From Paenibacillus sp. UNC451MF (GTDB lineage: Bacteria; Bacillota; Bacilli; Paenibacillales; NBRC-103111), in the NCBI RefSeq assembly GCF_000686845.1, contig NZ_JMLS01000002.1:186001-250000 (forward strand): DNA of 64,000 nt, in the 5' to 3' direction. Of this stretch, positions 7,841-25,262 are shown in pieces. Below the pieces are notes generated by a model. That model was not told the origin of the DNA. It did no database searches and saw nothing but the letters and a program-made list of their open reading frames with translations. Position 1 is the first letter of the stretch. The number at the start of each line of letters is the position of its first letter. The translations under genes were made by a program, and so were the position numbers.

Positions 7841-7872
7841 CGGTAAGCTCCTTCGCACGTTGTGGATCATTT

Positions 7873-8110: not shown

Positions 8111-9007
8111 CTATGCCCCAGATGTGCGACTAAGGCAGAAGTGCTCGATCGCATGAGCTACACCGCTCTCTTCATGGGAAAGCGTCGTGTGATGGCACAC
8201 GCTCTTAATGCTTTCATGCGCATTGCCCATTGCGATAGCCACACCCGCCATTTGCAGCATCTGCAGGTCATTATGATTATCTCCAATGGCTGCCGTCTCG
8301 CATAACTCAATACCCATATGCTGAGCCAACCGCTGCAAAGCATACCCTTTTTGCGCAGCTATATTCGTTATTTCCAGATTATTAGCTGCTGATGAGCTAA
8401 TGGCCAACGCCTTATTGCTTTGCAACGCCGTCTTACATCGCAGCAGCCTTTCTCTATCGTAGGAGCAGGTCAGCAGCTTGTAGGTTTCAACGCGGTCCGA
8501 CATGTCCGGCGTCCGCGAAGATTTATTCGTTACATCCGAATAGCTTCTTACCGGAATGATCGTGCTCCTAGCAAACCTCTCCTCTGCCTTAGCACGTATG
8601 GCAGCCTCCGATAAATGCGGCTCCGATGAACGAATATCGGTCATTCTTAGAGCAATGGCTCCATCCGGGTTCTCCGTAAAAATGCCCCGATTCGTGTACA
8701 CTTCATAATACAATTTCTCCTGCTCCAGCAGCTCCTGAAGGATTGCAAACTGCTCTCCTGATAGCGGATGCGTAGACAGCCTCTCTCCGCCCAGGCTGAA
8801 GAGCTCCGCCCCGTTAGACCCTATGATCGGGCACTGAAGGCCCGCCTCCGCAAGCTTCCTCTGGGCCCAAGCATATGGCCGCCCCGTAGCTATAACGACC
8901 GTGATATGCTGTTCCTGGGCTAGCTGAATCGCACGCAGGTTTGCGGGTGTAATCTCCAGCCTCTTGGTCAGCAGCGTCCCGTCCATATCGATTGCAATAA
9001 GCTTCAT
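8111..9007 (-). CDS. Cof-type HAD-IIB phosphatase
   Basis: A 298-residue HAD-superfamily phosphatase. The nucleophile motif DMDGTLL (D7, D9) is followed by the VVIATGRP motif II Thr and the C-terminal GDNHNDLQML metal motif; the IIB cap lies between. Such enzymes hydrolyse sugar phosphates or related small phosphomonoesters in the cytoplasm. Its start overlaps the stop of the upstream phosphodiesterase gene by 4 bases (ATGA), indicating translational coupling. A phosphodiesterase followed by a phosphomonoesterase suggests stepwise dephosphorylation of one imported or internal substrate. That coupling of functions is inference. Confidence 0.88.
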   Translation of the reverse strand: MKLIAIDMDGTLLTKRLEITPANLRAIQLAQEQHITVVIATGRPYAWAQRKLAEAGLQCPIIGSNGAELFSLGGERLSTHPLSGEQFAILQELLEQEKLYYEVYTNRGIFTENPDGAIALRMTDIRSSEPHLSEAAIRAKAEERFARSTIIPVRSYSDVTNKSSRTPDMSDRVETYKLLTCSYDRERLLRCKTALQSNKALAISSSAANNLEITNIAAQKGYALQRLAQHMGIELCETAAIGDNHNDLQMLQMAGVAIAMGNAHESIKSVCHHTTLSHEESGVAHAIEHFCLSRTSGA

Positions 9008-10680
9008 GGGTCCACGCCCTTATCGGCACTTGCAGCAATTTCCGACCATACAAAAGGATGTTGGTTCGCATCGTTCTGGCTACCCTGATGTTCAACTGTG
9101 CTTACATTTTGAAAGTAAAAGATTTTGCGGGTGATTCTACCACTAGCTTCCACCTCAACAACCCAACGATTTGAGTGGGTAAGAAGCTCACCCTTCAGGG
9201 TAAAGAGTCCTTTCTCGTCTGAGCTCCCTGCTTTCTGCCCATTTACTCGCAGCATGGCAAGAGGCACCGTAATTCCAGACACAACCCGTTCTCCCTCCGC
9301 AGACGGAGTAGACCATGCCACTACAGGTCCGCGCAGCTCCTCAGCCAAAAGATCATCCAGCACAGCTCCTACCGCATCCTTCGGCCCTTCGAATCCGAGT
9401 AGTCTTGCGATGGTTGGCGCAATATCTACCATCCAGACCTGCTCGTTATAGGTCATGCCCTTTTGAATGTTGGCACCTGACAGCATTGTGATAATATGAT
9501 GCACCTGCTTATGCAGTGAATCGTGGTTGGCACCGACTGCTTTCGGCACATCCATACCGTCCCAACTAAAATGAAACGGCGGCTGAGGTGAAATAACCAG
9601 ATCCGCAAAGCCTGTCATAGCTCCACGTCGAAGCAGTTCTTCCTTATGCAAATGGGTACCGTAATACGGTTTCCTCATCACCTGTGATACAATTTCTTCG
9701 AAAACCTCGTGTCCAGCAGGAAACCGGACATTGATTTGGGCCTGCAGAGTGACGACGGTAACAACAATGTCTGTATCCTCTTGGGCCTGCATTCCTTCCT
9801 GACAGAGTGCCTCCACCTTAAAGCGCTCTCCCTTGAACTTGCGGCCGCATTCGGCTATTGTATCGATCAAATCCGGCAAACAGCTGAATGCTTCCGGCGG
9901 TGGAGCGGCCTTCAGCGCTTTATTCTTCGCCCCGTAAGGGACCATGCCATGATCCGTGGTCAGAACTATCGTAGTCCGCTCGAACAAACCACGATCCTTC
10001 AACGCTTCCAGCAGTCTGCCCAAATCCTTATCCATTCTCAGAATGGTTTGGGCAATGTTGTCGTACCACTGTGGAAGCGTAGCAGCCACCGTCAAGCCCT
10101 CGTACGTTACCCGCCCGTTATGGGCAACTGTATCGATATCGTCCGCATACACGGACAAAAATCTCGGCATTTCACGGAACGTCAACGTTTCGCTTCCGGA
10201 AATAACAGGCTCTCCAAGAATGATCTTAATCATCTCGTCCACCCGCTGACCAAAGTTGCTGGGGAGCTCTTTGCGAATATACGGCTGTTCCCGATTCCCT
10301 TCGAATGTCCCTCGGTTCTCGAAATACCATGCGTTCACGGCAGCCAAGCTCACTCCGTTGCGCAATGCAGCTTCCGCAATATTTTCCAGCCGGTTCTGTC
10401 TGGCGAATTGGATAACCTTATTGCTAGGCACATCATAATATCGATGGCAATTGCCTGTATCTTCAGGCCATGCGCCTGAGGCGATGCATTGCTGCATCGC
10501 CCCGGTAATCGAAGGAATCCCCGTTCCTGCTTGGGTACAGAGTACCCCCTCCTTCACAAGCGCATCAAGGTTGGGCATTCCGCCGTAGCGTTCCTGCACA
10601 AGCTGATACCATGCATAAGCAAAGCCATCCCAATTGATATAAATGACATGATTGGGCAATTGCAAAGGGTTCATAGCCAT
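9004..10680 (-). CDS. cytoplasmic alkaline-phosphatase-superfamily phosphodiesterase
   Basis: A 558-residue protein of the type I phosphodiesterase / nucleotide pyrophosphatase group. Metal and catalytic residues are recognisable: D18 in INWDGF, the nucleophile Thr in AGTGIPS (T53), YADDIDTVAH (D181, D183, H187), TTDHGM (D243, H244) and the late ANHDSLH. Residues about 455-535 form an Ig-like beta domain. There is no signal peptide, so it should act inside the cell. It is closely similar along its whole length to residues 438-965 of the S-layer protein at 20220-25262. GGAGG lies 8 bases before its ATG. It is in the ABC-importer/Gfo/Idh operon. Substrate unknown. Confidence 0.87.
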   Translation of the reverse strand: MAMNPLQLPNHVIYINWDGFAYAWYQLVQERYGGMPNLDALVKEGVLCTQAGTGIPSITGAMQQCIASGAWPEDTGNCHRYYDVPSNKVIQFARQNRLENIAEAALRNGVSLAAVNAWYFENRGTFEGNREQPYIRKELPSNFGQRVDEMIKIILGEPVISGSETLTFREMPRFLSVYADDIDTVAHNGRVTYEGLTVAATLPQWYDNIAQTILRMDKDLGRLLEALKDRGLFERTTIVLTTDHGMVPYGAKNKALKAAPPPEAFSCLPDLIDTIAECGRKFKGERFKVEALCQEGMQAQEDTDIVVTVVTLQAQINVRFPAGHEVFEEIVSQVMRKPYYGTHLHKEELLRRGAMTGFADLVISPQPPFHFSWDGMDVPKAVGANHDSLHKQVHHIITMLSGANIQKGMTYNEQVWMVDIAPTIARLLGFEGPKDAVGAVLDDLLAEELRGPVVAWSTPSAEGERVVSGITVPLAMLRVNGQKAGSSDEKGLFTLKGELLTHSNRWVVEVEASGRITRKIFYFQNVSTVEHQGSQNDANQHPFVWSEIAASADKGVDP

Positions 10681-10737
10681 GATTGCATTCCTCCACTGCT
10701 TATATTCATCTCTATTTCACACTTATAGCGCTACGAC

Positions 10738-11730
10738 CTAATAATGCTTTACTTGCACGGGCTGTCCGGATTTAGCCGATTCATAAGCGGCCCAGGCTAC
10801 CTCTGCCGCCCGAAGCCCATCCTCTCCGCTAATGGTTGGCTTACGCCTTTCACCGATGCTGTGAATGAACTCGGCTGCCAGCGCCCCATTGGAGCTGTCC
10901 CCCCAACCAACAACTTTGTGTGTCGTCGGACTATCGCTCTCCCACAGACTGCCTGCTTGCGCGAAGGCGTCCAGGTGGATTACGCCCTTCGTGCCGACAA
11001 TGCGCATCGTCACATCTCCCCATGTGGAGAAGGTCGACGGCCGCGACCAGCTCGTATCAAGCGTTGCGATGACACCGTTATCGAACTTCATTGATAGCAA
11101 TCCGCAATCATCTACAGGGATGTCATGCAGCAGCGTGTCCACCTCAGCATATACTTCCTGCACCTCGCTCTTTAAGAGCCAGCGCATAATATCCGCTACG
11201 TGCACCGTATGATCAAGGACCGAACCACCGCCGGAAAGCTCGGGATCAACGAACCAACCACCGGGCATTTTACCGTGATTGGTCGCTGCAATGGCTACAA
11301 CTTCACCAATTTCTCCATCCTCAATCTGCTTCTTCACTTTCCTCACAGACGAGTTCAATCGGACCGGAAACGCCGTCTGCAGACTCACTTGCTTGCGTTC
11401 GCATAGGTCGATGAGCTCGCGAGCTTCGCTTCCCACCGTTGTAATCGGCTTTTCTACCAGTATATGCACCCCTGCTTCCGCTGCCGCTTTTGCATACGGA
11501 AAATGCTTGATGTTATCCGAGCAAATCAACACACCGTCTATTTTGCTCAGCAGCTGAGTGTAGTCGTTATAAAACGAAGTTTGAAACTGCTCCGCCGCTG
11601 CTTTACCGCGCTCTTCGCTCTCATCGTAGACGCCAACCAGCTCGGTTCCCGGCTGCTCAAGTAAAGCCCTAGTGTAACTGTATCCATGCATATGGGAGAA
11701 GCTGATAACCCCTAGACGTATGTTGTTCAT
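10738..11730 (-). CDS. Gfo/Idh/MocA-family oxidoreductase
   Basis: A 330-residue NAD(P)-dependent sugar or inositol dehydrogenase-like protein. The N-terminal Rossmann fold carries LGVISFSHMHGYSY in place of a classic GxGxxG. It is followed by the family motif VEKPI and the catalytic-domain LSGGGSVLDHTVHVAD strand with its His. It overlaps the upstream paralogue by 4 bases, so both are made together. Paired Gfo/Idh proteins next to sugar importers often oxidise and reduce the same sugar in sequence. The altered nucleotide-binding loop is typical of one branch of the family. Substrate unknown. Confidence 0.87.
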   Translation of the reverse strand: MNNIRLGVISFSHMHGYSYTRALLEQPGTELVGVYDESEERGKAAAEQFQTSFYNDYTQLLSKIDGVLICSDNIKHFPYAKAAAEAGVHILVEKPITTVGSEARELIDLCERKQVSLQTAFPVRLNSSVRKVKKQIEDGEIGEVVAIAATNHGKMPGGWFVDPELSGGGSVLDHTVHVADIMRWLLKSEVQEVYAEVDTLLHDIPVDDCGLLSMKFDNGVIATLDTSWSRPSTFSTWGDVTMRIVGTKGVIHLDAFAQAGSLWESDSPTTHKVVGWGDSSNGALAAEFIHSIGERRKPTISGEDGLRAAEVAWAAYESAKSGQPVQVKHY

Positions 11731-12710
11731 ATGCGCTCATTCTCCATTTCTATCGATTGTTGCGTGCGGACCGATTCCATGGCTGCCAGCCCGATTCTAA
11801 GCGAGGACAGCGCCTCTTCTCCAGAGGTCAGAGGCTCCGTTCTGTTTACGATACATTCCACAAAATGCTCCAGCTCCAGTGCATAGGGGCTTTTCTCCAA
11901 AGGGCTGTCCGGCACTGCGGTCTGTTCCTTGGTTCCGCCAAATTTAACAACCGAATAAGATTTCTCTTTATCGAACTGTACAAGCCCTTTCGTTCCCGCA
12001 ATTTCTATCGCGGTCTGGAACGGCGAGCCGGGCGGATAGGCCCAGCTAGCCTCTACATGCGCCATCACTCCGCTCTCAAAGCGCACTAGTGTCAGCGTAT
12101 GATCAAGACGCTCCGCCGTCGTTTGGCGGCTGAACACCCGCCGAACCGGCCCGAAGCACCAACGCAAAAAGTCAAAATCGTGAATAGCCAGATCCAGCAG
12201 TGGCCCTCCGCTGCGGCTGTAATCGGAATACCACGGCATCCAAACAGGGAATGCGCCAGAACGAATAGTACGCACAACCCCTGGCTTACCAAGCTTGCCC
12301 GATAACAGCTGCTGCCGTGCCGCACGATATTCCGGAAAAAACCGGACGACATGTCCCACCATCAGCGTTACACCGGCCTGACGACAAGCTTCGATCATTG
12401 CACGAGCATCATCTTCGGTCGTAGAGATAGGCTTTTCACAGAACACGTGCTTTCCATACGATGCAGCAAGCTCAACCGCCTGCCGGTGCAAATCGGTCGG
12501 CAAGCAAATATCGACGGCGTCAACCTTACCGCTAGCCAGCATCTCTTCGAGAGATGCATATACAGGCACATCCCAGCCTTGCGCAATGCGTCCCGCTTTT
12601 TCCTCATCTATATCGCAAACAGCCGTAATGCTTGCGCCGTTTACTTGCCGGTATGCCCGGTTATGGGTATTCCCCATTGTTCCGGCTCCCACCAAACCAA
12701 TCCGAATCAT
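11727..12710 (-). CDS. Gfo/Idh/MocA-family oxidoreductase
   Basis: A 327-residue dehydrogenase with a canonical dinucleotide-binding start (RIGLVGAGTMGNTH), the FCEKPI motif and the SGGPLLDLAIHDFDFLRW strand bearing the likely catalytic Asp/His. It is distinct from, but paralogous to, the downstream enzyme, which it overlaps by 4 bases. It lies 22 bases after the solute-binding protein gene of the same operon. It probably acts on the sugar or cyclitol brought in by this importer. The cofactor preference cannot be told with certainty. Confidence 0.89.
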   Translation of the reverse strand: MIRIGLVGAGTMGNTHNRAYRQVNGASITAVCDIDEEKAGRIAQGWDVPVYASLEEMLASGKVDAVDICLPTDLHRQAVELAASYGKHVFCEKPISTTEDDARAMIEACRQAGVTLMVGHVVRFFPEYRAARQQLLSGKLGKPGVVRTIRSGAFPVWMPWYSDYSRSGGPLLDLAIHDFDFLRWCFGPVRRVFSRQTTAERLDHTLTLVRFESGVMAHVEASWAYPPGSPFQTAIEIAGTKGLVQFDKEKSYSVVKFGGTKEQTAVPDSPLEKSPYALELEHFVECIVNRTEPLTSGEEALSSLRIGLAAMESVRTQQSIEMENERI

Positions 12711-12732
12711 GTCGTTTCCTCCTTAGCTCCAG

Positions 12733-14343
12733 CTATTTCTTCAGGCTCGCATACCATTCGTTTGCTTCTTTTTCCAGCTGCTCGCCGCCGGATTTTTTCC
12801 ATTTCGAGACGAATTCATCAAAGTACGCGATCGGCTTATCGCCAGTAATAATACTTATGTAGGCTTCCTGCTCGATTTTCTTCAATTCCTCTTTATATTT
12901 GCCGTCTGACGCCAGCGGAGAGAGCAATGCATTCGAGATGCCTCCGACGTTGTACTTATTTTTCTCAGCCCAATCGAACCTTGGCTGTGCACGCTTGATC
13001 GTATATTCCTTGAATTCGAAAGGATTCATCATAACGCCGGCTTTAGATAGAGTCTTGGCGTCTGCACCATTAATAAATCCCGGGAACCCATTCTCCTTGT
13101 TATAATCCCAATCCTTGCCTTTAATCCCGAAAATACTGTTTAAGTAATCTTCATACGTTTTGTTCATAGCTTCCAGGTTTTGCAGCGCTTTGGCCATTTT
13201 CTCAGGATCCTTTTCCAACTGCTTGCCAAAACCGATAAAGTTGCCGTTAACTTCATTCGGAGCGCTTACACCCATTTTTCCGGCAGGTCCTTTAGGCGGA
13301 ACCCCGTGTACGATCGCCTCAGTCGCTTGCGGATTGATTTTCTTCATTTCGATATAATTTTCTGACTTGGAGTCGCCCGGATATAAGATGGGCTTCCAAG
13401 TATAATATTCACCGATGCTCGTAAAGCCGATCCTTCCATTGAAGAACGCATGCGAGAAGGCATAATAGCCGCCCTGATTTTCTCCTGTAATAAATTCAGG
13501 ATCAAGTACCTTGTCCTTGTACCATTTGCTCAGCATCGTCAATGCCTGCTTCATCTCCGGCTGTACGGAAGCATAGACCAGCTTGCCGTCCTTCTCCTGC
13601 CAAAACTCAGGAATATAACCAAATGCACCATACACAGCCTGCATACCGGTCTGAGATAGACCATAAGTATCTTTTTTACCGTTCTTGTCCGGGTCCTCAT
13701 TGGCGAACTTGTACATCGCCTGCTCGAATTCCTCTAATGTCTCTGGCGCTTTGTCGATGCCGACATTTTTGAGCCAGTCGCCTCTCCATACGATCGGCTT
13801 ACGGTTGCGCACCGCATTCGAAATAGGAATGCCGTATAGCTTGCCGTCGATTTTCCCGTATTTCAGCCCTCCAGGCACTGTAGTTTCATTGACTTCTTTA
13901 TAAAGGGAAGGTGCATTTTTCTTAATCATGTCGACCGGAATCTCCGCGAGCAAATCCTGCTTCGTATACTTTTGCAAGCCTGTGAAGCCTTTAACGAACA
14001 GCTCGTCAGGAATTTCGCCGGAAGCGAATTTAAGATTCAAAATTTCATCCCACTTGTTCGATTCAATGTTCCACACATCGTAGTCGGTATTGAACTTTTC
14101 ACTGTACTGCTTCAGCATTTCCCCATCCTTATCGACTGGAACAACGGAAGACAGGGCAACGGAAATTTTAAACTTCTTGTTCGCGTCCGGTGTTACACTA
14201 CCTCCTTGAGCGCTGCCACTGCTTGACTGCTCGTTCCCCTTGGCTGTTCCTCCATCTGTCTTTCCGCTGCAGCCCGCCAACGCGGTTACCGCCATCATTG
14301 ACGCGATAAGAGCGTAAGTTACCGGTTTGTTCACTTGCTTCAT
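12733..14343 (-). CDS. extracellular solute-binding lipoprotein (LipO/YtcQ type) of a sugar ABC importer
   Basis: A 536-residue lipoprotein. The signal peptide ends at the lipobox LAGC (Cys25), followed by a Gly/Ser/Lys-rich linker and a large family-1 type binding domain. Its length (over 500 residues) and partners mark the LipO/YtcQ group found with LplB/YtcP permeases in Paenibacillus. I prefer the ATG at 14343, 9 bases after GGGAG, over the ATG 9 bases upstream, which abuts the ribosome site. No ATPase gene is present in the operon, as is normal for this class, which borrows a shared MsmX-type ATPase. The ligand is probably an oligosaccharide or glycoside. Confidence 0.9.
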   Translation of the reverse strand: MKQVNKPVTYALIASMMAVTALAGCSGKTDGGTAKGNEQSSSGSAQGGSVTPDANKKFKISVALSSVVPVDKDGEMLKQYSEKFNTDYDVWNIESNKWDEILNLKFASGEIPDELFVKGFTGLQKYTKQDLLAEIPVDMIKKNAPSLYKEVNETTVPGGLKYGKIDGKLYGIPISNAVRNRKPIVWRGDWLKNVGIDKAPETLEEFEQAMYKFANEDPDKNGKKDTYGLSQTGMQAVYGAFGYIPEFWQEKDGKLVYASVQPEMKQALTMLSKWYKDKVLDPEFITGENQGGYYAFSHAFFNGRIGFTSIGEYYTWKPILYPGDSKSENYIEMKKINPQATEAIVHGVPPKGPAGKMGVSAPNEVNGNFIGFGKQLEKDPEKMAKALQNLEAMNKTYEDYLNSIFGIKGKDWDYNKENGFPGFINGADAKTLSKAGVMMNPFEFKEYTIKRAQPRFDWAEKNKYNVGGISNALLSPLASDGKYKEELKKIEQEAYISIITGDKPIAYFDEFVSKWKKSGGEQLEKEANEWYASLKK

Positions 14344-14373
14344 CCTCATCATCTCCCTATAGATTTAGATTGG

Positions 14374-15261
14374 TTATCCTTTGAGTGAGCCTACCAAAAT
14401 CCCTTTGACAAAGTGCTTTTGCACAAACGGATATATCAAAATAATGGGAATCGTCGCCACCATAACTGTCGTCGCTTTGATCGTCTCGGGATTCGCTATC
14501 ATTTCCTTATCGTCAAAGCTGTTCAAATCCATCATATCCTTCGTTCCCTCCAGTACGATACGTCGAAGCACGACCTGAAGCACATGCTTATGTGAATCCG
14601 ATATGTAGATCATGCTGTCAAACCAAGCGTTCCAGTGGTGAACCGCCGTCCATAAGCTGAGCGTGGCGATGATTGGCATCGATAGCGGAATCACGATACT
14701 GAACATAATACGGATCTCGTTGGCTCCGTCGATTCGTGCCGATTCTTCCAGGCTTTCGGGCAGCGACATAAAGAAGTTGCGGGCTATGATCATTTGAAAC
14801 GTGTGAACCAATCCGGGAACAATGAGCGCCCATACGGAATTCATCATTCCTAAGGATTTGATCAATAAGTAGCTGGGGATGATCCCGCCTGAGAAAAACA
14901 TGGTGAACACGATAAAAGCAGTCCAAAATCCGCGGTTGGGGAAATATTTTTTAGATAACGGATAAGCGGTAAATACGGTTAACAATACGGTCAGCAAGGT
15001 GCCAATTACTGTTCTAATGAGCGTATTGACAAAGCCTGATGCGATGAATTCGTTGGTCAGCACTTTCTCATAGTTGCTCAGGGTGAATTTCGGAGGAATG
15101 AGATGAATCTGCGAGAACGAAATATCTCCTGGGCTAAATGACAGTGACAGCAAAAACAAGAACGGATATACGGTCGCCACGCATAGCAAAATCATGAACG
15201 TATAGTTCCCGGTATCAAACATTCTGCTTAGCATGAAGGTTTTTATTTTAGTTGATGCCAT
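14374..15261 (-). CDS. sugar ABC transporter permease (YtcP/MalG type)
   Basis: A 295-residue inner-membrane permease with about six membrane helices and the EAA loop seen as SLEESARIDGANEIRIMFSIVIPLSMP, which docks to the ATPase. The start is the ATG at 15261, preceded by AAAGGTGG; the upstream TTG lies inside that site. It is the second permease of the importer, between the first permease and the binding protein. It belongs to the CUT1 group handling oligosaccharides or sugar conjugates. Confidence 0.91.
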   Translation of the reverse strand: MASTKIKTFMLSRMFDTGNYTFMILLCVATVYPFLFLLSLSFSPGDISFSQIHLIPPKFTLSNYEKVLTNEFIASGFVNTLIRTVIGTLLTVLLTVFTAYPLSKKYFPNRGFWTAFIVFTMFFSGGIIPSYLLIKSLGMMNSVWALIVPGLVHTFQMIIARNFFMSLPESLEESARIDGANEIRIMFSIVIPLSMPIIATLSLWTAVHHWNAWFDSMIYISDSHKHVLQVVLRRIVLEGTKDMMDLNSFDDKEMIANPETIKATTVMVATIPIILIYPFVQKHFVKGILVGSLKG

Positions 15262-15307
15262 AGGCAACCCACCTTTGTTGAAAAATCCTGACGGCTAACT
15301 TGCAGTT

Positions 15308-16634: not shown

Positions 16635-18980
16635 ATGAAACTATTTGGAAGGCTGCGGACTGTCTTTGTGAAGCTGATTTTGTCCTATATTGTGCTTATT
16701 TTGATAACGCTCATTTTCGTCGGGGTGACCTCCTATTTGTATTTCGCCTCCAGCTTCAACGAGCAGGTCGAGAAAGTGAACCAACGAATTCTGAGCCATC
16801 TTAGCCAAACGATAGAAAAAGACGTCATCAGCATCGTCGAAAGCAACTATTTATCCATCGCAGCAGGCGATGTGAACAAGACGAGCCCAGCCCTCTTTTT
16901 TTTCGATAACGGCATGGAAGGCCATCACAGTAAAGTGAAGGATATTCATACGCAGCTCAAAACCTTAGTCGCAGCTAACTCCGATCTTATAGCTTCCATT
17001 GCAGTGTATTACAAAAACAATAATATGCTTATTTCCTCTGATGCCGGGATTACCTATTTGGATCAAGCCGTATGGATCGATCTGGATTGGCTGCAGCGCG
17101 CCCAGTCGCCCGAGACTCGCAAGCAGTGGATCGAGACTCGCAAGGTCTCCTCGAACATTACTTCCGATTCGCACGCAACCGATCTGATGACATTCGTACG
17201 ACCGTACCCTTATACATCCAATGAGGCAAAAATAAAAGGGTACATCGCTATTCATATCAACGAAAGTGCGCTTAAAAACATCATTCATTTGAACGATCCG
17301 AGCGATTCCAATCAGATGGTCCTTCTGGATTCGGAGGGAAATACGCTTTCGCACAGCACAACGGCCGCATTATACAAGCCCATGTCGGGCTACACCTATA
17401 TTGCCGATATTTTGAACTCCAACCGCAAATCCAATCATTTTGTTGAAAAGCTCGGCACTGTCAAAACCATGATTTCCTATGTAACGATTCCAAACGCGGG
17501 CTGGAAGCTGGTCAGCATGACACCTGTTGACGAGTTTTACAAAAGCACGACCCCTATTCGCAACACACTCATCCTGATTTGCTTTATCGCTATTGTGATC
17601 GGCTTAATCGTCTCCAATATTTTCACGTTCAACATGTACAATCCGCTGAAAGCGATCATACATAAAGCAAGGCAGCGGTTAGGCACGAATCATTTGCAAA
17701 ATGAAAATGAGTTTATGTTCATCGACCATGTCATGAACAATCTCTCCGTCAAAGTAAGCGAGCTCGAAACAACGCTCAAAGCTAACATGCCGATTATTAA
17801 GCACAATCTCGTTCTTGGTCTGTTGACTTCAGGAATCCACAGCGAGCATGACTTGTCCGCTAGGCTGCAGCTGCTCCATATCCGGTGGCCTGGGGACGGG
17901 TTCATTTCTCTAAAGCTCCAGCTGGACTCCTATTCGATGCGCCTAGCCTCTCACGAAAACAATCAATATGTGAAATACAACTTAATTGAACATATCGAGC
18001 AGCAAAGCGATGAAACCCATTTGTTTCTGGCTATGGAGCAGTCGGAATATGAAATATCTGTGATAGCCTGCTGCAAGCAATACGACATGAATACGATGAT
18101 TCGCTTGGTTGAGGATATCGCAGCCTATGCTTATACCAGCTTCATGATCCAGATGACGGCGGCCATTGGAACGAAGGTCGATGCTCCCCTTGAATTGCAT
18201 GTATCGTTTGCTCAAACTCAGGCTTTATTGAAATATTATTTCATTATTCCGGATGCGGGAATTTATTACGGTCATTCACTTCTTCAGAGGGAGCAATGTT
18301 CCGAGGAAATACCTGAAGAGCCTATGAAGCGGTTTGCTATAAGCCTGCGTACGAACAACCGCGAAGCGATTCGTGAGGAAATTCACTCCTTTATCGAGCT
18401 GCTGCAAAATGGACCGTTCAGCGCAGAGCACTGCCGGCAAAAATGGTTTGAATATGTGGATCTGTTCCATGTGTATTGCAAAGAAATGAATTTGCGTACA
18501 AAGGACATCTGGAGCACGGAGCTTATGGAATCGTGGGGCCACCTCTCCCATCTCACGGATCATGAGCGATGGCTTCAGCAAGCCGTAGACGAAACTCTTG
18601 CTTATTGGGAGAAGCGAAACGGCAGCCGTACTAACGATATCATTCGGATGGTCAAGGAATACATCTTGTCCAATATCGCTGCTCCGTTATCGCTTGACAC
18701 TGCGGCAGACCAAGTTTCTTTAAGCCCCCGTTATTTAAGCAGAGTATTTAAAGATGAGGTCGGAATTAATTTCACCGATTTCGTGACCAAACAACGCATC
18801 GAGAAAGCCAAGGAGCTGATCATATCGACGGACTTGCAAGTGGAACAAATCGCGGAACAGGTCGGGTTTAACAGTTCGGCCTATTTTATTAAAAAGTTCA
18901 AAGAAATGTACGGCGTTACACCCAAAAATTACAAGCATCATCATAACCTGGACACGATTCAAATGAACAGTAAGATCTGA
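16635..18980 (+). CDS. membrane-bound AraC-family regulator with extracellular sensor domain
   Basis: A 781-residue YesN/YtdP-type regulator. Membrane helix 1 is at about residues 11-36. An extracytoplasmic Cache-like sensor covers about 37-310 and ends with the WKLVSMTPVDEFY motif typical of such domains. Helix 2 is at about 315-338, and a long cytoplasmic linker follows. The C-terminal AraC DNA-binding domain (about 680-775) has two helix-turn-helix units (LSLDTAADQVSLSPRYLSRVFKDE and IAEQVGFNSSAYFIKKFKEMYGVTP). In Paenibacillus these proteins sense extracellular sugars or binding-protein complexes and activate the adjacent importer, here the divergent operon at 16264. The facing S-layer phosphodiesterase operon may also be under its control, but that is inference. 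Confidence 0.9.
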   Translation: MKLFGRLRTVFVKLILSYIVLILITLIFVGVTSYLYFASSFNEQVEKVNQRILSHLSQTIEKDVISIVESNYLSIAAGDVNKTSPALFFFDNGMEGHHSKVKDIHTQLKTLVAANSDLIASIAVYYKNNNMLISSDAGITYLDQAVWIDLDWLQRAQSPETRKQWIETRKVSSNITSDSHATDLMTFVRPYPYTSNEAKIKGYIAIHINESALKNIIHLNDPSDSNQMVLLDSEGNTLSHSTTAALYKPMSGYTYIADILNSNRKSNHFVEKLGTVKTMISYVTIPNAGWKLVSMTPVDEFYKSTTPIRNTLILICFIAIVIGLIVSNIFTFNMYNPLKAIIHKARQRLGTNHLQNENEFMFIDHVMNNLSVKVSELETTLKANMPIIKHNLVLGLLTSGIHSEHDLSARLQLLHIRWPGDGFISLKLQLDSYSMRLASHENNQYVKYNLIEHIEQQSDETHLFLAMEQSEYEISVIACCKQYDMNTMIRLVEDIAAYAYTSFMIQMTAAIGTKVDAPLELHVSFAQTQALLKYYFIIPDAGIYYGHSLLQREQCSEEIPEEPMKRFAISLRTNNREAIREEIHSFIELLQNGPFSAEHCRQKWFEYVDLFHVYCKEMNLRTKDIWSTELMESWGHLSHLTDHERWLQQAVDETLAYWEKRNGSRTNDIIRMVKEYILSNIAAPLSLDTAADQVSLSPRYLSRVFKDEVGINFTDFVTKQRIEKAKELIISTDLQVEQIAEQVGFNSSAYFIKKFKEMYGVTPKNYKHHHNLDTIQMNSKI

Positions 18981-19002
18981 TCATCCAACATAACTGAAAT
19001 GT

Positions 19003-19032
19003 GAAAAGCCCGCAGGCAGCCTGCGGGTTTTC
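19003..19032. terminator. bidirectional intrinsic terminator
   Basis: GAAAA-CCCGCAGG pairs with CCTGCGGGTTTTC around a three-base loop, with A and T tracts on both sides. It separates the converging araC-type and acetyltransferase genes. Confidence 0.88.
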
Positions 19033-19047
19033 ATGATCGATAAAAGC

Positions 19048-20220
19048 TTACACGTAATTCAGACCTCTTGTATAGGGAAACGGCAGCGGGAACAACGTAT
19101 ATAATCGTTCCATTAGCTCCTGAGTGAGAGGAAGCAACGGATTAACATCAAAAAAGAGCTGTACAACCTCCGCTTCCGAAAGCTTCCCTTGCAAGTCTCC
19201 ATAGCGCACCATGATCTGTCCTTCGTCCACTGGGACGAGGTCCAAGCTATTGAACCAATTCTCGTGTTTGCTCCGTAAATACGGTGCGGCTTGGGTTAAC
19301 AGCAGCTTGGGATCGATAATACGAACTGTGCCCCCGTTACGCTCCACGCTATGCTCCGCTTCATGAATCATCTTTGCAAGCTCGTTATCTTGTTCTGCGT
19401 CGTAAATGTCTAGCTGCTCCAGCTCATTCTCCTTCATGGCGTGAGCAAGCAGCATAGCGATGGATGCCTCATCGCCTCCGTACTCGATAACATAAGGCTG
19501 TCGCTTTCCCGAGCCTGGAAGACCCACAGCAGCGAAAGCAACGATACTCCCCTCCTGCTCCGCGACATAGATTTGCTGCTTCATGTTCGTCACGGCTGCA
19601 AGCGGTTGTGCATGGGCTAGAAGCGATAAATCCCATAGGCTCTGCTCGAAACGTATGCGTCGCTGTCCGACTAGCTCACTCAGAGAGAACCAATCGGTCG
19701 CATTCATTTCCCGAAGGACTGTTCTCGCCAGCGAAGCATCCGACGATTCTATCATGGAGCTATGAATACCTGCGGCAGCTTGAGCATTCAGCCGATAATG
19801 GGAGATGGCTCCGAACCGGCAGCAGCCTTCTCTGGCGTACAACTCTCCCGCCCCCGACACCAACAGGATACAAGCTCCGGCTTGCTGCGCATGTCGGATA
19901 ACCTCCTTCAGGATAAGCCCTGCATAGCCCTTCCCTCGATGCTCCGGATGCGTGCATACGGCACCAATGGAGTAGATGTTCAACCTAGCCTTCCCAATCC
20001 GTATAACGGATGGAACCATCCCGATGAAGGAGACCAGCATCTCTTTCACAAACAGCCCGTAAGATTGCCGCAAGCTGTCGGAAAAAACATGGGGGAACGC
20101 ATCCCCCATAGAAGTTTCCCCTGCGCTTCGAAACACGTTGTCAGCGAGACGTATTGCGGTCTCGAACTCCTCCCCTTTCAGCAAGCGAATGTCCAGCATG
20201 CTGTCTAACTCCGTAAGCAT
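19048..20220 (-). CDS. Eis-like GNAT acetyltransferase
   Basis: A 390-residue acetyltransferase of the enhanced intracellular survival (Eis) type: an N-terminal GNAT domain, a second half-GNAT and a sterol-carrier-like C-terminus. The acetyl-CoA site is visible as IGAVCTHPEHRGKGYAGLILKE, followed by LVSGAGELYAREGCCRFG. Its ATG shares one base with the stop codon of the large phosphodiesterase gene upstream (TAATG), so translation is coupled. The substrate could be an aminoglycoside-like or amino-sugar amine. Its tie to a secreted phosphodiesterase hints that the released product may carry an amine; that is speculation. Confidence 0.85.
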   Translation of the reverse strand: MLTELDSMLDIRLLKGEEFETAIRLADNVFRSAGETSMGDAFPHVFSDSLRQSYGLFVKEMLVSFIGMVPSVIRIGKARLNIYSIGAVCTHPEHRGKGYAGLILKEVIRHAQQAGACILLVSGAGELYAREGCCRFGAISHYRLNAQAAAGIHSSMIESSDASLARTVLREMNATDWFSLSELVGQRRIRFEQSLWDLSLLAHAQPLAAVTNMKQQIYVAEQEGSIVAFAAVGLPGSGKRQPYVIEYGGDEASIAMLLAHAMKENELEQLDIYDAEQDNELAKMIHEAEHSVERNGGTVRIIDPKLLLTQAAPYLRSKHENWFNSLDLVPVDEGQIMVRYGDLQGKLSEAEVVQLFFDVNPLLPLTQELMERLYTLFPLPFPYTRGLNYV

Positions 20221-23200
20221 TAATTTATAAATTGCACATGCTGCAATAAACGCTTCAGCATCACAGCAGCCTGCGCACGGGTTGTATACTCAGAAGGCCC
20301 GAATGCATCATCATCCATTCCTGTTATTATGCCTGCTGAAGCAGATTGCTTTACCGCTTCCTGCGCCCACAAGCTGATCTGTGACTGATCCTTAAATTCA
20401 TGTATGGTCTGCTCCTGCTTCACCGCAGCCGCATCCAGATTGCCTGCTATCCTCAAAGCCTTTGAAATCATTACGGCTGACTCCTCACGGGTAATCGGCT
20501 CTTCAGGATGATAGGAGCCATCCTGAAAACCGGATACAAGACCGGCTTTCGCAGCTGCTTTTACGGAACCCGCAAACCACTCTCCCTCGCGTACATCCGT
20601 AAACTTGGAGCCCGAGCTCACTTCATTAAGGCCGAGTGCTCTGACAAGGAGTGCCGCAAATTGAGCCCTAGTAACACGACTGTCAGGATCAAACCGGCTA
20701 TCGCTTACTCCTTGAACTAGCTGCTTGGACGCAAGCAGCTCCACATCCGTCTTAGCCCAATGCTGGCTCAAATCCTTGAATGACTTTTGGGCTGATGCTA
20801 TCGTATACACGCTGTTTCCAGTACGTTTCATGACGACTTCCGTCTTACCGTTTTTCGGATAAAATACGGATGGCACGAACGCTATGCTGCCGGTGGCCGG
20901 ATCAAACCATACAGCGCTAGCCCGGGATGGATCGACGTATCCGTTGATCATCATCGTTCTGGCGACATAGGCACCATCGAAATTATCGATAAGCTCCTCT
21001 TTCCCATTGTCCGCTATTACAGAAAGATGGAACTCTACCCCATCGCTAAGCGGCACGGCTGACAGCTCCTTTAATTTCTGCCGCAGCTGCTCCGTTATCG
21101 GTTCCGCCACTAGTTCCACTGTAATCCGAACCTTGATATGCTCGGTATCGGTGCCCAGCCTTTGCGCCAGCTCCGGAAGCTGCAACAGCTTCACCGGGAA
21201 GTGAAAAGCTGCTGAACTGCTCTTCGCAACGACAACAGCATCCGGTGCTTTGGCTGCCGCCTTCAACAGCGTTCTACCGGCGATTTCCAATGCAGCCGCC
21301 CCATTGGTATCATTCAGTTGAACTTCGATCGTTCTATCACCGTTATCGATTGAAGGAATCAGCTGCTGCTCGTCGAGTGTCATAACTTCAGGCTGCTGCG
21401 ACGGTGTCGTAACAGAAGGCGTTTCAACGACCGGCGCGCTCACGCTAGAGCCCCCACCGCCGCCTCTAGAGCCCGAACTGATATACATGACATAAGGCGC
21501 AGCCTTGACCTCCGCAGTTTTGGCGGATTCCATCCCGGCCCTGTTTACAGCGCTTAGCTGAAACCGGTACGTTTGACCGTTCATAAGTCCTGTCACAGTA
21601 TGGCTTTGCTCAGTGGTCGTATAGCTGGCTGACGCCCCTCCGTCCATATAAATGCGGTATTCGGCAATATCCGGCTCCTTGTTTGCGTTCCATGATAAAG
21701 TTACTTTTCCGTTTTCCGCTGATGCGGAAAAACCGGAGGGAACCGCCGGAGCTGCTTCTTCCACTGCTCCGGCAAGAGTCGTATCAGAAATTCTTTGAAC
21801 ATAATATACTCCCCATGGAAGCTCTCCTCTTGTAGCTGAGCTGGTAATGACAGTGAAGGTACTTAGCATGGCTCCATTAGCAATCGTTATGTTATAGGTA
21901 CCTTGCGGTACATCGGCATAATATTGGACCTGGTGATCTAGCACCGTGCCGAACGAATCCTTGGAATCCGTCATCTCTACCTTGCCGACCTGCGTATTCC
22001 CTTGGGTTTGTCCATACCCCGTCTCGTATCGAACCGTTCGATCTACACTTTCCACCGTAATGGTCGTAGCCGCTTTATTTGTACCCTTAGGCAGAAGCAC
22101 TTCTCCGAATAAATGATAGCCTGCCGCAGGTGATCTTTCAGCAGCACGGAAATTGGCGTAGGCAGCTTCCAATTGGCTTAATCCCGTCTGAAGCTGGGAT
22201 GCCGTCGCTTCAATGTTTTCCGAGACAATGACAGCATCGCTCAAAGCCTGTTTAAACACTGCCTTGGAGCCGGGCTTATAATTCCCTACGTCCGCTCCTT
22301 CTACTGAAGTCTCATACAAAGCCCGTCCTTCCGCTATCTTTTGCAGCAGCAGCATTCTTGGTACTTTGTACGTCACATACACAACCTGCCGCGTTGTATA
22401 AGTGTCAACCGCAGCTTCCACGATCACACGATGGATCCCTGGCGTTAAGGACTGTGTGATCGAGAAGGTTCCTTGGACATCTGCCGCCCCCGCCCATTTA
22501 CCGTTCACCTTGATCGTCGCGAGAGGATCGGTAAGTCCGGTAATCGTAATGCTCTCCGTGTCGACAATCGTATCGTCGGAAGCAGGTGCTGTGAGCTTCA
22601 AGCCCGGTCCTCGATAGGCTTCATCCAGAGCCTCATCCAGCACGGCTCCTGTGGCGCCGGCAGGACCTTCAATCCCGAGCACTCTAGCGATCGTAGGCGC
22701 TATATCGATGTTGTACATTTTTTTCGTGTACTCCATCCCTTTTTCCACATGAGCCCCGGCCAAGAGCGTAAAGATATGCTGTGCATCTTCATCAAGAGAA
22801 TCATGCTGGCCTGCGACGGAGCGCTGCTTCGTGACGGAAGGGTCCCCAGTTTTGAAATGATAAGGGGGCTTCGGAGAGATAAGAAGATCGGCAAAGTGAG
22901 CCGTAGCTCCTCTTTTGATCAGATCTTCTTTAAGCATGTGGGCGCCATAATACACTTTGCCCTTCACTTGCTCCACGATTTCGTCCAGTACCGCCTTTTC
23001 CACCGGAATGCGGAACTTGATTTGCGCCTGCAAGCCGACCGTCGTTATAACGATTTCCGTATCCGGCTTGGCCGACGTATCCTTAGCAAACACTGTCTCC
23101 ACTTTGTAATTGGAGCCTCGGAACTTTTGACCGACTCCAGCTATCGTTTGCTCCAGGTCAGCCAAGCTCGTATAGGTTCCAGGCAGATACGGCGCCTGAA

Positions 23201-25262
23201 ACTCGGCGTTATCCGCTCCGAACTGCACCATGCCGTGATCAGTCGTCAGAGCAATGGTCGTCTTGTTATAGATGCCACGATCCTTTAAAGCCTGAATAAT
23301 ACGGCCCAGCTGTTCATCTACGCGAATGACCGTTTTGGCCACGTTATCCAGATAAGTCTGGACATCCGTCGCTACAGGTACGCCGTAAGCTCCTCCAGCC
23401 TCCGTATGATTGTTATGCCCAACAGCATCGATATCGTCCGCATAGAAAGCCAAAAAGTGCGGAACCTCCGTTAACGTGATCGTCTTGCCACCGGATTGAA
23501 AAGGCTCACCAAGAATGACTTTAACCATCTCATCCGCTCTTTCCTTGGAGCTGTTCAATCCAGAGGCTGTAACATAAGGCTGCGCAGCGTTCCCTGCGAC
23601 AGCACCTTTGTTCTCAAAATAAAATGCATTGACAGCCGCTAAGCCAATGTTATTTTTATATACGGCTTCTGCAATGTTTTCTAATGCATTTTCACGACTG
23701 TATTGAACAACGACATTAGCCGAACTATCGTAATGGCGATAATCGTTGCCGGTATCCACAGGCCATGCGCCGGACACAACAGCCTGCTGCATCGCATCTG
23801 TAATGGAAGGGATGCCCGTACTGGCATTTGTAAACAACACTCCATCCTGAATAAGCGCATTCAGATTCGGGGTACCCCTGTAAGGTGCACTGTTAGCGAG
23901 CTCGTACCATTTGTAAGCAAAACCGTCCAAATTAATATAGAGCACATGATTGTCCGTCGGCTTTTCCACTCGAACCTTCAATAGATTGATGCCTTCGGCA
24001 TTTGCCGGAGCAGGAATTCCAAGCAAGGCCGCAACGGTCGGCGACAGATCCGTGATGCTCGTAGGAACCCGAACGTCACCTTTGGCTGGAACTGCGCTGC
24101 CGGAGATAACACCAAACACATGGGTAGACGTAGAATCGAAAGAGTCCGGTCTATGCACCTTTTCCGATGCAGGTGAGAAGGTATACCCTTCCTTCGGTAT
24201 CACGAGAAGATCGGCGAATTTCGGATGAACCCCCAACGCATCAAGTTGGTTCCGATTCATAACCTCCAATACATAGTCCTGAGCCTGAATGGCGCGAATC
24301 AGTTGATCGATTCTTTCCTGAGTCATCGTCGTTTTATTGTAAATAAACAGCTGCAAATACGTTGCTTCATAGTTTTTAATCGTAACCATATCCGGCGTAC
24401 CGGCTACGGCTCCTGTACTTACTTCCTTGTAAGTGAAACCGTTAGGAGCGACACTTAAAGCATTAAGCAGAGCAGTCGCCTTTTTCCCTTTTGTTTGTGT
24501 AACCCCGCTGTGGGAGCTCAATATATAGGTTGTTTTTGCCGGGTTACCCTTGGTCTCGATCTTCTTCATCAAGGTGCCCAACTGAGCATCCAGCTCGGTA
24601 AGCTTGGTCAATAGATGGGCCTCATAATCCGCCTTCTCGCTGGTTATTTCCCGATCCTCCATATATAAATCGTTGGAATATAAATTTAAGTAGTCCGGTT
24701 GCCCATAGTTCTCGATTTGGTATACTGCTTTCGTCACTGTGCCAGCGAACGTTACCGTCTCCACCGATGATGTAGAATAATATTCAAAGGTAGGGGCTGA
24801 TTCGGCCTTCACCGCATACTCGTTAATAACAACGGCAGTGCGAGAATTTTGCATCGCCTTCGTAATCGTTTGCGCTTCGTTAAGCGCTGTACTAAAGTTG
24901 ATTACATTCGTTCCATCAAGATACTTGTAGGTGTTCCCTGTCGTTTTGGGAAACGCGCCTGTCATCGTAGCAAAATGTCCGGCAACAGCGGACGGCACCG
25001 TTGTCTTGTGATTGGTGAGTCTAATCCCGTTGGCAACTAATTTATCAAGATTAGGCGTGGCCTTTCCGCTTTTCTTGGCCAAATCATATAGCTCGCTGTA
25101 AAAGCCATCCCATGTAATATGCACGACCTTATTGCTCCCCATAGAGCTTGTTGACGCTGCAAAAGCCGAAGCTACTCCTCCTCCGATCCAGGAGCACCAA
25201 CTGCTTACGACCAATCCCCCCATTAATAGAAAGATAACGATTCGCCTTAGCATACTTCTCAT
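20220..25262 (-). CDS. S-layer exoprotein with two tandem phosphodiesterase domains
   Basis: A 1680-residue secreted protein. A signal peptide ends near residue 36 (AFAAS). Residues 44-430 form a first alkaline-phosphatase-fold domain, and 438-890 a second one. An Ig-like domain (895-965), a helical FIVAR-like segment (970-1042), a beta domain (1045-1145), a fibronectin type III domain (1172-1255) and a Gly/Ser/Pro linker (1262-1292) follow. After a further unrecognised domain come three SLH repeats (about 1494-1540, 1554-1602, 1622-1672) that bind cell-wall pyruvylated polymer. Domain 2 keeps the full metal set (LDGF, ASTGIPS, YADDIDAVGH, TTDHGM, GQHDSL). Domain 1 has SSHSGV in place of TTDHGM and no DDxD-H motif, so it is probably inactive. 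Substrate unknown. Confidence 0.88.
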   Translation of the reverse strand: MRSMLRRIVIFLLMGGLVVSSWCSWIGGGVASAFAASTSSMGSNKVVHITWDGFYSELYDLAKKSGKATPNLDKLVANGIRLTNHKTTVPSAVAGHFATMTGAFPKTTGNTYKYLDGTNVINFSTALNEAQTITKAMQNSRTAVVINEYAVKAESAPTFEYYSTSSVETVTFAGTVTKAVYQIENYGQPDYLNLYSNDLYMEDREITSEKADYEAHLLTKLTELDAQLGTLMKKIETKGNPAKTTYILSSHSGVTQTKGKKATALLNALSVAPNGFTYKEVSTGAVAGTPDMVTIKNYEATYLQLFIYNKTTMTQERIDQLIRAIQAQDYVLEVMNRNQLDALGVHPKFADLLVIPKEGYTFSPASEKVHRPDSFDSTSTHVFGVISGSAVPAKGDVRVPTSITDLSPTVAALLGIPAPANAEGINLLKVRVEKPTDNHVLYINLDGFAYKWYELANSAPYRGTPNLNALIQDGVLFTNASTGIPSITDAMQQAVVSGAWPVDTGNDYRHYDSSANVVVQYSRENALENIAEAVYKNNIGLAAVNAFYFENKGAVAGNAAQPYVTASGLNSSKERADEMVKVILGEPFQSGGKTITLTEVPHFLAFYADDIDAVGHNNHTEAGGAYGVPVATDVQTYLDNVAKTVIRVDEQLGRIIQALKDRGIYNKTTIALTTDHGMVQFGADNAEFQAPYLPGTYTSLADLEQTIAGVGQKFRGSNYKVETVFAKDTSAKPDTEIVITTVGLQAQIKFRIPVEKAVLDEIVEQVKGKVYYGAHMLKEDLIKRGATAHFADLLISPKPPYHFKTGDPSVTKQRSVAGQHDSLDEDAQHIFTLLAGAHVEKGMEYTKKMYNIDIAPTIARVLGIEGPAGATGAVLDEALDEAYRGPGLKLTAPASDDTIVDTESITITGLTDPLATIKVNGKWAGAADVQGTFSITQSLTPGIHRVIVEAAVDTYTTRQVVYVTYKVPRMLLLQKIAEGRALYETSVEGADVGNYKPGSKAVFKQALSDAVIVSENIEATASQLQTGLSQLEAAYANFRAAERSPAAGYHLFGEVLLPKGTNKAATTITVESVDRTVRYETGYGQTQGNTQVGKVEMTDSKDSFGTVLDHQVQYYADVPQGTYNITIANGAMLSTFTVITSSATRGELPWGVYYVQRISDTTLAGAVEEAAPAVPSGFSASAENGKVTLSWNANKEPDIAEYRIYMDGGASASYTTTEQSHTVTGLMNGQTYRFQLSAVNRAGMESAKTAEVKAAPYVMYISSGSRGGGGGSSVSAPVVETPSVTTPSQQPEVMTLDEQQLIPSIDNGDRTIEVQLNDTNGAAALEIAGRTLLKAAAKAPDAVVVAKSSSAAFHFPVKLLQLPELAQRLGTDTEHIKVRITVELVAEPITEQLRQKLKELSAVPLSDGVEFHLSVIADNGKEELIDNFDGAYVARTMMINGYVDPSRASAVWFDPATGSIAFVPSVFYPKNGKTEVVMKRTGNSVYTIASAQKSFKDLSQHWAKTDVELLASKQLVQGVSDSRFDPDSRVTRAQFAALLVRALGLNEVSSGSKFTDVREGEWFAGSVKAAAKAGLVSGFQDGSYHPEEPITREESAVMISKALRIAGNLDAAAVKQEQTIHEFKDQSQISLWAQEAVKQSASAGIITGMDDDAFGPSEYTTRAQAAVMLKRLLQHVQFIN

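Follow-up and report, generated by a model that had tools for sequence, protein, structure and literature searches.

A surface phosphodiesterase, its intracellular paralogue and an importer of Paenibacillus appear to be under the control of a single membrane sensor

In Paenibacillus sp. UNC451MF, one membrane sensor appears to control a surface phosphodiesterase, a related intracellular enzyme and an importer, a system probably used for a phosphate-linked sugar or sugar alcohol. The genes (Table 1) lie in a 64,000-nt stretch of contig NZ_JMLS01000002.1, which was analyzed as a whole and is hereafter called the window. At the sequence level, the base of this reading is a pair of operator-like sites in each of two promoters, a predicted surface protein with an intact NPP domain and a degenerate one, an intact and putatively cytoplasmic NPP enzyme, and an operon for importer, Gfo/Idh enzymes and phosphatase.

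Table 1. Features of the locus, in window coordinates
Feature	Position	Strand	Basis
HAD-IIB (Cof-type) phosphatase	8111..9007	-	Pfam Hydrolase_3, 204 bits; NCBIfam Cof subfamily above cut-off
P0002, predicted cytoplasmic NPP-family phosphodiesterase with Ig-like tail	9004..10680	-	
Gfo/Idh oxidoreductase B (P0004)	10738..11730	-	Pfam; linkage to phosphoesterase genes
Gfo/Idh oxidoreductase A (P0005)	11727..12710	-	Pfam; top NCBIfam model inositol 2-dehydrogenase, below cut-off
Importer solute-binding protein	12733..14352	-	Related to solved ABC binding proteins, including AlgQ1
YtcP-like permease	14374..15267	-	BPD_transp_1; YtcP name from first-pass annotation
LplB-like permease	15308..16264	-	BPD_transp_1
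Operator-like site 1, upstream of lplB	16344..16370	-	Rank 1 (4-site matrix), 2 (2-site); exact pattern match
Operator-like site 2, upstream of lplB	16397..16423	-	Rank 4, either matrix; 2 mismatches to derived pattern
Membrane AraC-type regulator with Cache-like sensor region, between both operons	16635..18980	+	HTH_18
GNAT acetyltransferase	19048..20220	-	Pfam Acetyltransf_9; abuts SLH gene stop
SLH surface protein P0001	20220..25262	-	Signal-like segment, degenerate NPP, intact NPP, Ig-like, fn3, three SLH stretches
Intact NPP domain and Ig-like tail (residues 438-966), P0002 paralogue	22365..23951	-	Alignment
Degenerate N-terminal NPP domain (residues about 45-437)	23952..25130	-	6/8 residues lost
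Operator-like site 2, upstream of SLH gene	25421..25447	-	Rank 5, either matrix
Operator-like site 1, upstream of SLH gene	25474..25500	-	Rank 2 (4-site matrix), 1 (2-site); exact pattern match

The first-pass annotation described two facing operons, a layout that we reject because the coordinates put both on the minus strand (8111-16315 and 19048-25262), the AraC gene alone being on the plus strand. The genes themselves are as it had listed them. Both phosphodiesterase reading frames exist, encoding 558 and 1680 residues, and a domain search recovers two Gfo/Idh enzymes, a Cof-type HAD phosphatase, two permeases, a GNAT protein and the AraC protein. The latter, encoded between the operons, has two hydrophobic segments and matches dCache_1 with 41.5 bits, just under the Pfam cut-off of 45. 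For lplB, the start context makes an ATG at 16264, behind GGGGAGG, likelier than the GTG at 16315. The solute-binding protein has a Cys-bearing N-terminal signal, judged by eye, and no match in Pfam or NCBIfam. The HAD phosphatase gene, which overlaps the P0002 gene by 4 bp, is the last of the importer operon. The terminator-like hairpin downstream of it (7980-7999) carries little weight, with the terminator scan near its shuffle mean (18 vs 16.3, sd 4.6), as is the sigma-70 scan (30 vs 23.8, sd 4.5).

The similarity previously noted between the two phosphodiesterases is borne out by alignment: residues 10-522 of P0002 match residues 438-962 of the SLH protein P0001 over 525 aligned residues, Ig-like tail included, with 49% identity (E 7e-176). 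The SLH gene is also the best match to P0002 elsewhere in its own genome (E 6.3e-166), the only others being two matches over 62-69 codons (E 3.9e-4 and 4.1e-4). The opposite locations proposed for the two proteins are upheld as predictions. P0002, with no hydrophobic N-terminal segment, is probably cytoplasmic, while P0001 has such a segment at residues 3-23, a secretion signal by hydropathy only, and three SLH stretches (E 4.9e-37), as expected of an SLH-anchored surface protein.

P0002 has an NPP fold, with a bacterial nucleotide NPP as its closest match and NPP-type entries throughout the best 50 fold matches listed. The AlphaFold model, built from 25 rows, is good; a 7-row model was poor (pLDDT 52.0) and was set aside. 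Eight residues (D18, T59, N77, D183, H187, D243, H244, and H386) are identical in 25 of 25 sequences and, by analogy with XacNPP motifs, we take them to be the Thr nucleophile, the Asn and six zinc ligands (three Asp and three His). P0001 contains two NPP-fold domains, of which the N-terminal one, 22% identical to P0002, keeps only the equivalents of D18 and N77 (two of eight) in all three orthologues. The others are changed (T59 to V/E, D183 to Y, H187 to R, D243 to H/Y, H244 to S, and H386 to a gap). The SLH-domain clade is weakly supported (80/67). Two other assignments were rejected. Residues 56-64 of P0002 (PSITGAMQQ) do not fit C/S-x-P-x-R, the nucleophile motif of formylglycine sulfatases, and the model for the alkaline phosphatase PafA (NF042991) gives 39.1 bits for P0002 and 51.6 bits for P0001 against a cut-off of 650.

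Two further Paenibacillus genomes, cl123 and J5C2022, also have both NPP forms, the sensor and the importer, so that the neighborhood is conserved, as the idea of a common pathway had implied. Permeases in these genomes are 77-86% identical to those of the window, and solute-binding proteins 66-76%. In J5C2022, the whole cassette forms one gene run, with the SLH repeats in a separate ORF. Each cassette has a phosphatase gene, HAD in the window and His_Phos_1 in cl123 and J5C2022 (56% identical to each other). The acetyltransferase, which had been proposed as a partner, does not adjoin the SLH gene in cl123 or J5C2022 and was dropped as a pathway member, not being conserved with that gene. Occurrence across the order is very patchy (3 of 392 genomes, the window's included). 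The importer alone does not predict the NPP enzymes: some genomes of the order encode binding proteins 47-58% identical yet give no NPP match at 1e-60. At such NPP-less loci, sulfatase genes adjoin the binding protein in L105 and L106, and a GH2-type gene is found in L105. Carriage by phages or plasmids was likewise rejected, none of 41 pattern-matching viral stretches encoding a relative and the plasmid collection yielding two records (27-30% identical across 74-77% of the query).

The promoters of lplB and of the SLH gene have twin operator-like sites in common, with 53 bp from site 1 to site 2 in both. When about 128,000 positions are scored with a matrix from cl123, made from four or only two sites, the window sites rank 1, 2, 4, and 5; an unrelated position, 63112, ranks third. 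The sites were first picked with the window in view. At 50-56 bp spacing, the two promoters give the two highest-scoring pairs (39.8 and 30.9); the maximum was 21.9 in a control set of 12 random first-order Markov sequences of 64 kb each, and 18.6 across 526,021 bases from other loci. In the reverse test, with the window matrix, the top two ranks in each of the two cl123 loci go to the cl123 sites, the weakest barely ahead of its locus's next match (10.0 vs 9.7). Beyond the two promoters, which match by construction, 7.49 Mb of sequence contain no exact match to the derived pattern, and site 2 of the SLH gene is absent from the matches with up to two mismatches. The same search in J5C2022 gave no clear pair, the best scores being 3.1 at spacings of 50-56 and 13.4 at 70-80. 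The latter pair, on the minus strand in the gap between sensor and lplB, is not convincing.

Together, the twin sites in both promoters, cross-tested in a second species, and the recurrence in two genomes argue for one co-regulated system, and the "one pathway" reading of the first-pass annotation holds up well. We consider it likely that the locus forms a single regulon by which a soluble, anionic saccharide or polyol containing a phosphodiester is used. In such a system, the Cache-AraC sensor would detect the substrate or a fragment of it and bind the paired sites. The surface enzyme would cut the parent molecule, the dead N-terminal domain of the SLH protein perhaps being a binding or spacing module, and LplB, YtcP, and the solute-binding protein would import fragments still holding a diester. 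Inside the cell, the cytoplasmic NPP would cut the imported diester bond, the HAD phosphatase would remove the phosphate, and the two dehydrogenases would oxidize the released ring.

The dehydrogenases offer a second handle on the substrate since the pair recurs with phosphoesterases of three folds. The pair is missing from the cassettes of cl123 and J5C2022; judging from gene neighborhoods, it is nevertheless linked to the NPP family elsewhere. In one distant family, a P0004 orthologue is present in 7 of 10 genomes with NPP and in none of three without, and lies within 5 kb of the NPP gene in six genomes. These adjacent cases all come from one family and are therefore not independent. In five of seven Paenibacillaceae loci, the pair is accompanied by importer genes and by a phosphoesterase of the EEP or calcineurin-like type; in L075 and L077, no phosphoesterase was recognized (four ORFs scanned, the remainder by eye).

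Weak hints favor an inositol or polyol phosphodiester as candidate substrate. In a specific form of the regulon explanation, the substrate would be an inositol phosphodiester (glycerophosphoinositol, di-myo-inositol phosphate, or a glycosyl-inositol-phosphate head group), from which the phosphatase would free inositol, to be oxidized twice by the Gfo/Idh pair. This identification is tentative and on balance doubtful. The NPP gene of L069 is near a homologue (E 7.1e-48) of TM0415, reported as a PPi-dependent myo-inositol kinase (PMC5931981), and a kinase piece in L057 is 83% identical to the L069 kinase. For the adjacent TIM barrels, IolO is the best-scoring model (283.6 and 285.9 bits), both values being under its cut-off of 300. 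IolG is the top model for P0005 and five orthologues (182-209 bits), P0005 being far under the cut-off (TIGR04380, 201.3 bits vs 355). Of five EEP proteins tested from other Paenibacillaceae loci, four match a nuclease-like model of PGAP2IP, a GPI-related protein (57-103 bits). However, the kinase is near NPP in only 2 of the 10 NPP genomes of the distant family, in a third, G617, it is on another contig, two further genomes have a 38% relative elsewhere, and a search of the window's genome at E 1e-20 found no TM0415-like kinase. Other neighbors, GalT and GalK genes in L058 and genes for a nucleoside-type (BMP) importer, point elsewhere. A galactose diester like xanthosan (see below) was also rejected: GalT/GalK are near NPP in L058 and, by eye, in L059, and nothing similar was recognized in the window genes scanned.

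If the enzymes instead served wall-polymer turnover, the surface NPP would cut diesters of the cell's own or its neighbors' teichoic or secondary cell-wall polymers, or the GlcNAc-P-MurNAc linkage, and the fragments would be recycled. The SLH anchor would place the enzyme on the wall, and the J5C2022 cassette is flanked by genes for MurQ (above cut-off), a GH4 enzyme, a MurR/RpiR-type regulator and a BadF-type kinase. No such genes were recognized when the window and cl123 flanks were read (the latter largely by eye), so the J5C2022 site may be a mere insertion point, and the teichoic acids put forward in the first-pass annotation are left with the flank of one genome in their favor. Since a Gfo/Idh pair and Cache-AraC control better suit a nutrient, and the distribution is too patchy for wall housekeeping, we find this role improbable. 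There is similarly a small chance that these are general NPPs cutting nucleotides or nucleotide sugars to scavenge phosphate or nucleotides, carbon being secondary. This would fit the nucleotide NPP found as best fold match, the BMP-type importer genes near distant NPP relatives (L058 and L080), similar permease genes in L062 (BPD_transp_2) and L069 (by eye), and alkaline phosphatase genes near NPP in L065 and L070. That two paralogues and an importer serving separate purposes are neighbors by chance is very improbable: the Gfo/Idh pair and the GNAT gene are not constant members, but the operator-like sites are common to two species and the set of sensor, importer and two enzymes to three genomes.

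In its fullest version, the phosphodiester regulon would be an undescribed route to phosphodiester-linked polyols as nutrients. One Cache-AraC sensor would govern two successive cuts in an inositol- or polyol-linked phosphodiester, the first by a surface NPP whose dead twin holds the substrate and the second by a cytoplasmic NPP, and the oxidizing Gfo/Idh pair would be a portable module that, across the phylum, has been joined to phosphoesterases of the NPP, EEP, and calcineurin-like types. As a whole, this version is unlikely. Organic phosphodiesters are a large, poorly charted nutrient pool, and the locus, if the regulon reading is true, offers an importer, a sensor and two enzymes for finding such a nutrient by binding and growth assays. 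It would also provide examples of an NPP enzyme in the cytoplasm and of an NPP pseudo-domain that is conserved; to our knowledge, neither has been described in bacteria. No title or abstract found in searches of open-license papers describes a surface and cytoplasmic NPP pair with this importer.

In fold and catalytic residues, the window NPPs resemble XacNPP (2gsn, 7n1s) and ENPP6. The NPP members known to us are secreted or membrane-bound, whereas one here is predicted to be cytoplasmic with an Ig-like tail, and the other SLH-anchored with a degenerate twin domain. Phosphodiesterases outside and inside, with an ABC importer, are also seen in the Ugp/GlpQ/UgpQ system, in which glycerophosphodiester hydrolysis by GlpQ (outside) and UgpQ (inside) is tied to import. 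Those enzymes are of the GDPD family, with another fold, not SLH-anchored, and under phosphate control. The acc operon of the Ti plasmid, for agrocinopine catabolism, similarly relies on an ABC importer for a sugar phosphodiester; we know of no NPP enzyme, SLH protein or Gfo/Idh pair in it. The genes near distant NPP relatives, for a TM0415-like kinase, an IolO-like epimerase and IolG-like dehydrogenases, recall the Thermotoga myo-inositol cluster. We take this cluster to be TM0412-TM0416 and know of no phosphodiesterase in it; unlike Thermotoga, the window's genome is without the kinase. In Xanthomonas, the sugar phosphodiester xanthosan is imported by XanT and cut inside by the phosphodiesterase XanP for nutrition, from a cluster that includes a ROK-type regulator gene, and agrocinopine catabolism is named in the same paper (PMC12807533). 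XanP is a 2H phosphoesterase, XanT a TonB-dependent transporter and the host Gram-negative, and the excerpted text mentions no surface phosphodiesterase, whereas one is predicted in the window. What the xanthosan system has in common with the scheme proposed here is dedicated import followed by internal phosphodiesterase cleavage.

The two operons under study were described in the first-pass annotation as facing each other, with a cytoplasmic phosphodiesterase of the NPP family (pde) in one and an SLH-anchored surface protein with a paralogous NPP domain (slh) in the other, and were read as parts of a single pathway. The observation is real, apart from the orientation. Since the importer unit and the slh-gnat unit both run on the minus strand, flanking the gene of the membrane Cache-AraC regulator on the plus strand, the operons do not face each other. 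The window, of 64 kb, lies in an assembly of 7.49 Mb, and its features are listed with those of related loci in the table. In the importer unit, 4-bp overlaps between had (a HAD phosphatase) and pde, and between the Gfo/Idh oxidoreductase genes gfoB and gfoA, suggest translational coupling, and the ATG at 16264, preceded by GGGGAGG, is a more likely start for lplB than the listed GTG. A terminator-like hairpin separates the end of had from a distinct group of IclR, FAA-hydrolase and aldehyde-dehydrogenase genes.

Table. Positions of features in the window and in loci of related genomes
Feature	Position	Strand	Content
Importer transcription unit	window 16264 down to 8111	minus	lplB-ytcP-sbp-gfoA-gfoB-pde-had
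Surface-protein transcription unit	window 25262 down to 19048	minus	slh-gnat
Hairpin	window 7980-7999		terminator-like
Next group downstream	window 4640-7870		GucD (alpha-ketoglutaric semialdehyde dehydrogenase, above cut-off), FAA-hydrolase protein, IclR regulator; looks like a sugar-acid pathway
TIM barrel	window 26115-26888	minus	xylose-isomerase-like; upstream of slh
Hybrid sensor kinase	window 37170-41042		1290 aa; Cache, PAS, receiver and Hpt domains
J5C2022 cassette, one flank	L028:198-3636		GH4, MurR/RpiR-type and BadF-type genes
J5C2022 cassette, other flank	L028:18970-21399		MurQ gene and (by eye) second binding protein
J5C2022, downstream of cassette	L028:17613-18917		long repetitive overlapping ORFs
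Sister importer module	L105:7503-19225		AraC-LplB-YtcP-SBP, GH2-type protein with 3-keto-disaccharide hydrolase domain, sulfatase
Distant cluster	L083:42-10492		gfoB orthologue, importer genes, long ORF with alkaline-phosphatase-like part, unidentified large protein, PHP-like protein
TM0415-type kinase	L069:5383-6270		near enzyme gene
Kinase piece	L057:826-1425		near enzyme gene

Close relatives of the cassette are rare (three of 104 genomes of the family and three of 392 of the order, window included in both); 12 other genomes of the genus gave short, weak matches only (nine genomes, best 2.8e-6) or none (three). A contig scan led to two loci, in the Paenibacillus genomes cl123 and J5C2022, whose permeases are 77-86%, binding proteins 66-76% and AraC proteins 38-54% identical to those of the window. 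The layout of cl123 (also G094) is that of the window: importer and cytoplasmic enzyme, then a divergent AraC gene, then an SLH gene (1617 codons, SLH by Pfam) that shares the importer's strand. In J5C2022, AraC diverges from lplB-ytcP-sbp-pde-slh, and a further ORF downstream encodes the SLH repeats. Neither sister cassette has the Gfo/Idh pair or GNAT; in place of the window's HAD enzyme, each carries a histidine phosphatase. A further genome, G087, has the cytoplasmic form only, with a LacI-type gene and the gene of a different binding protein beside it. The three cytoplasmic enzymes group together in the tree (100/99), as do, with weak support (80/67), the SLH domains and G087; the duplication into the two forms therefore seems to be older than these species. 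Judging from its flanks, the J5C2022 cassette may have been inserted into a MurNAc-use cluster. At L105, where a second sulfatase-like ORF was seen by eye after the first, the importer family seems to be paired with differing enzymes of the alkaline-phosphatase superfamily.

We then compared the upstream regions of both window units with those of cl123. In each of the four regions an operator-like site (consensus TNATAYNNTNNTGAANNTTTGNTA) occurs twice, reading on the same strand as the gene that follows; the spacing is 53 bp in both window regions, and 52 (SLH gene) and 76 bp (lplB) in cl123. When both strands of the window were scored with a matrix of the four cl123 sites, its own four came out at ranks 1, 2, 4 and 5, and its two promoters are the two best site pairs, scoring 39.8 and 30.9; the controls reached at most 21.9 (12 random sequences of 64 kb) and 18.6 (other loci, 526,021 bases). 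Because the sites had first been picked with the window in view, the ranking was repeated with a matrix of just the two primary sites of cl123 (in agreement at 16 of 18 positions), and the ranks were again 1, 2, 4 and 5. Conversely, with a matrix from the window sites, those of cl123 take the top two ranks in each locus, the weaker SLH site by a narrow margin (10.0 versus 9.7 for the next match). Across the whole genome, the pattern that these sites yield is matched exactly at two places, both at this locus; allowing up to two mismatches, it has 18 matches versus 13 for the reversed control, the fourth site (25421) not being among them. Two points count against shared control: the unrelated window position 63112 ranks third, and J5C2022, whose cassette is one run of genes, has no convincing site pair. 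The two units probably form one regulon via these sites; with the two conserved relatives, the sites give the one-pathway reading firmer ground than the first-pass annotation could have known.

Further afield, the phylum sample searched at 1e-30 gave matches in 21 of 398 genomes (window included); we read 16 distant neighbourhoods, plus further ones. In distant family f65, 10 of the 13 genomes searched have the phosphodiesterase, and a gfoB orthologue (49-55%) occurs in seven of these ten and in none of the other three. In six of the seven, no more than 5 kb lies between it and the enzyme gene, these six not being independent cases, and in the seventh (G752) the two are split by contig ends; G593 has three copies, two on contigs bearing a piece of the enzyme gene. 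In two genomes of family f78, gfoB (50%) adjoins a gene for a binding protein (72% identity to its counterpart at locus L060), and the enzyme is encoded on other contigs; a further two lack any gfoB match, and importer and alkaline-phosphatase genes lie by the enzyme. Within Paenibacillaceae, gfoB orthologues (67-73%) accompany importer genes in seven loci (L073-L078, L082), six with gfoA (L082 was not resolved) and six with a regulator resembling the L060 ROK protein. A phosphoesterase gene is close by in five, of EEP (L074, L076, L078, L082) or calcineurin-like (L073) type; none was recognised in L075 and L077 (four ORFs scanned, the rest by eye). Through these linkages, the Gfo/Idh pair often accompanies phosphoesterases, of three folds in all. 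The row of genes at L083 is a further putative phosphoester-use cluster, in a distant genome.

As for the substrate, weak hints favour inositol. TM0415 is described as a PPi-dependent myo-inositol kinase (PMC5931981). The L069 kinase is of this type (E 7.1e-48) and is 83% identical to the L057 piece; in its alignment, the arginines of the GRxGRGDTC stretch and the Met of the TM0415 PPi site seem to be conserved. A search at E 1e-20 gave no TM0415-type kinase in the window's genome. TIM barrels neighbouring distant enzyme genes score 283.6 and 285.9 bits with the IolO model (cut-off 300). IolO is also the best NCBIfam model for the window's TIM barrel, at 107 bits, far under cut-off; no such barrel was seen upstream of the cl123 SLH gene. 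The best model for GfoA is IolG, far below cut-off (201 versus 355), and its nearest solved protein is 3ezy, the Thermotoga TM0414 protein. Other neighbours (GalT and GalK, a BMP-type importer, alkaline phosphatase, a PHP protein) show the enzyme family at work in several contexts. AlgQ1, which binds alginate fragments, is among the solved binding proteins to which that of the window is related, in line with an anionic saccharide as a possible importer ligand.

Our searches of open-licence papers turned up no published system arranged in this way. Among known ways of life, sugar-phosphodiester nutrition comes closest, with xanthosan, in Xanthomonas (PMC12807533), and agrocinopine, named in the same paper, as examples; compared with those systems, the window's enzymes, transporters and anchoring differ.
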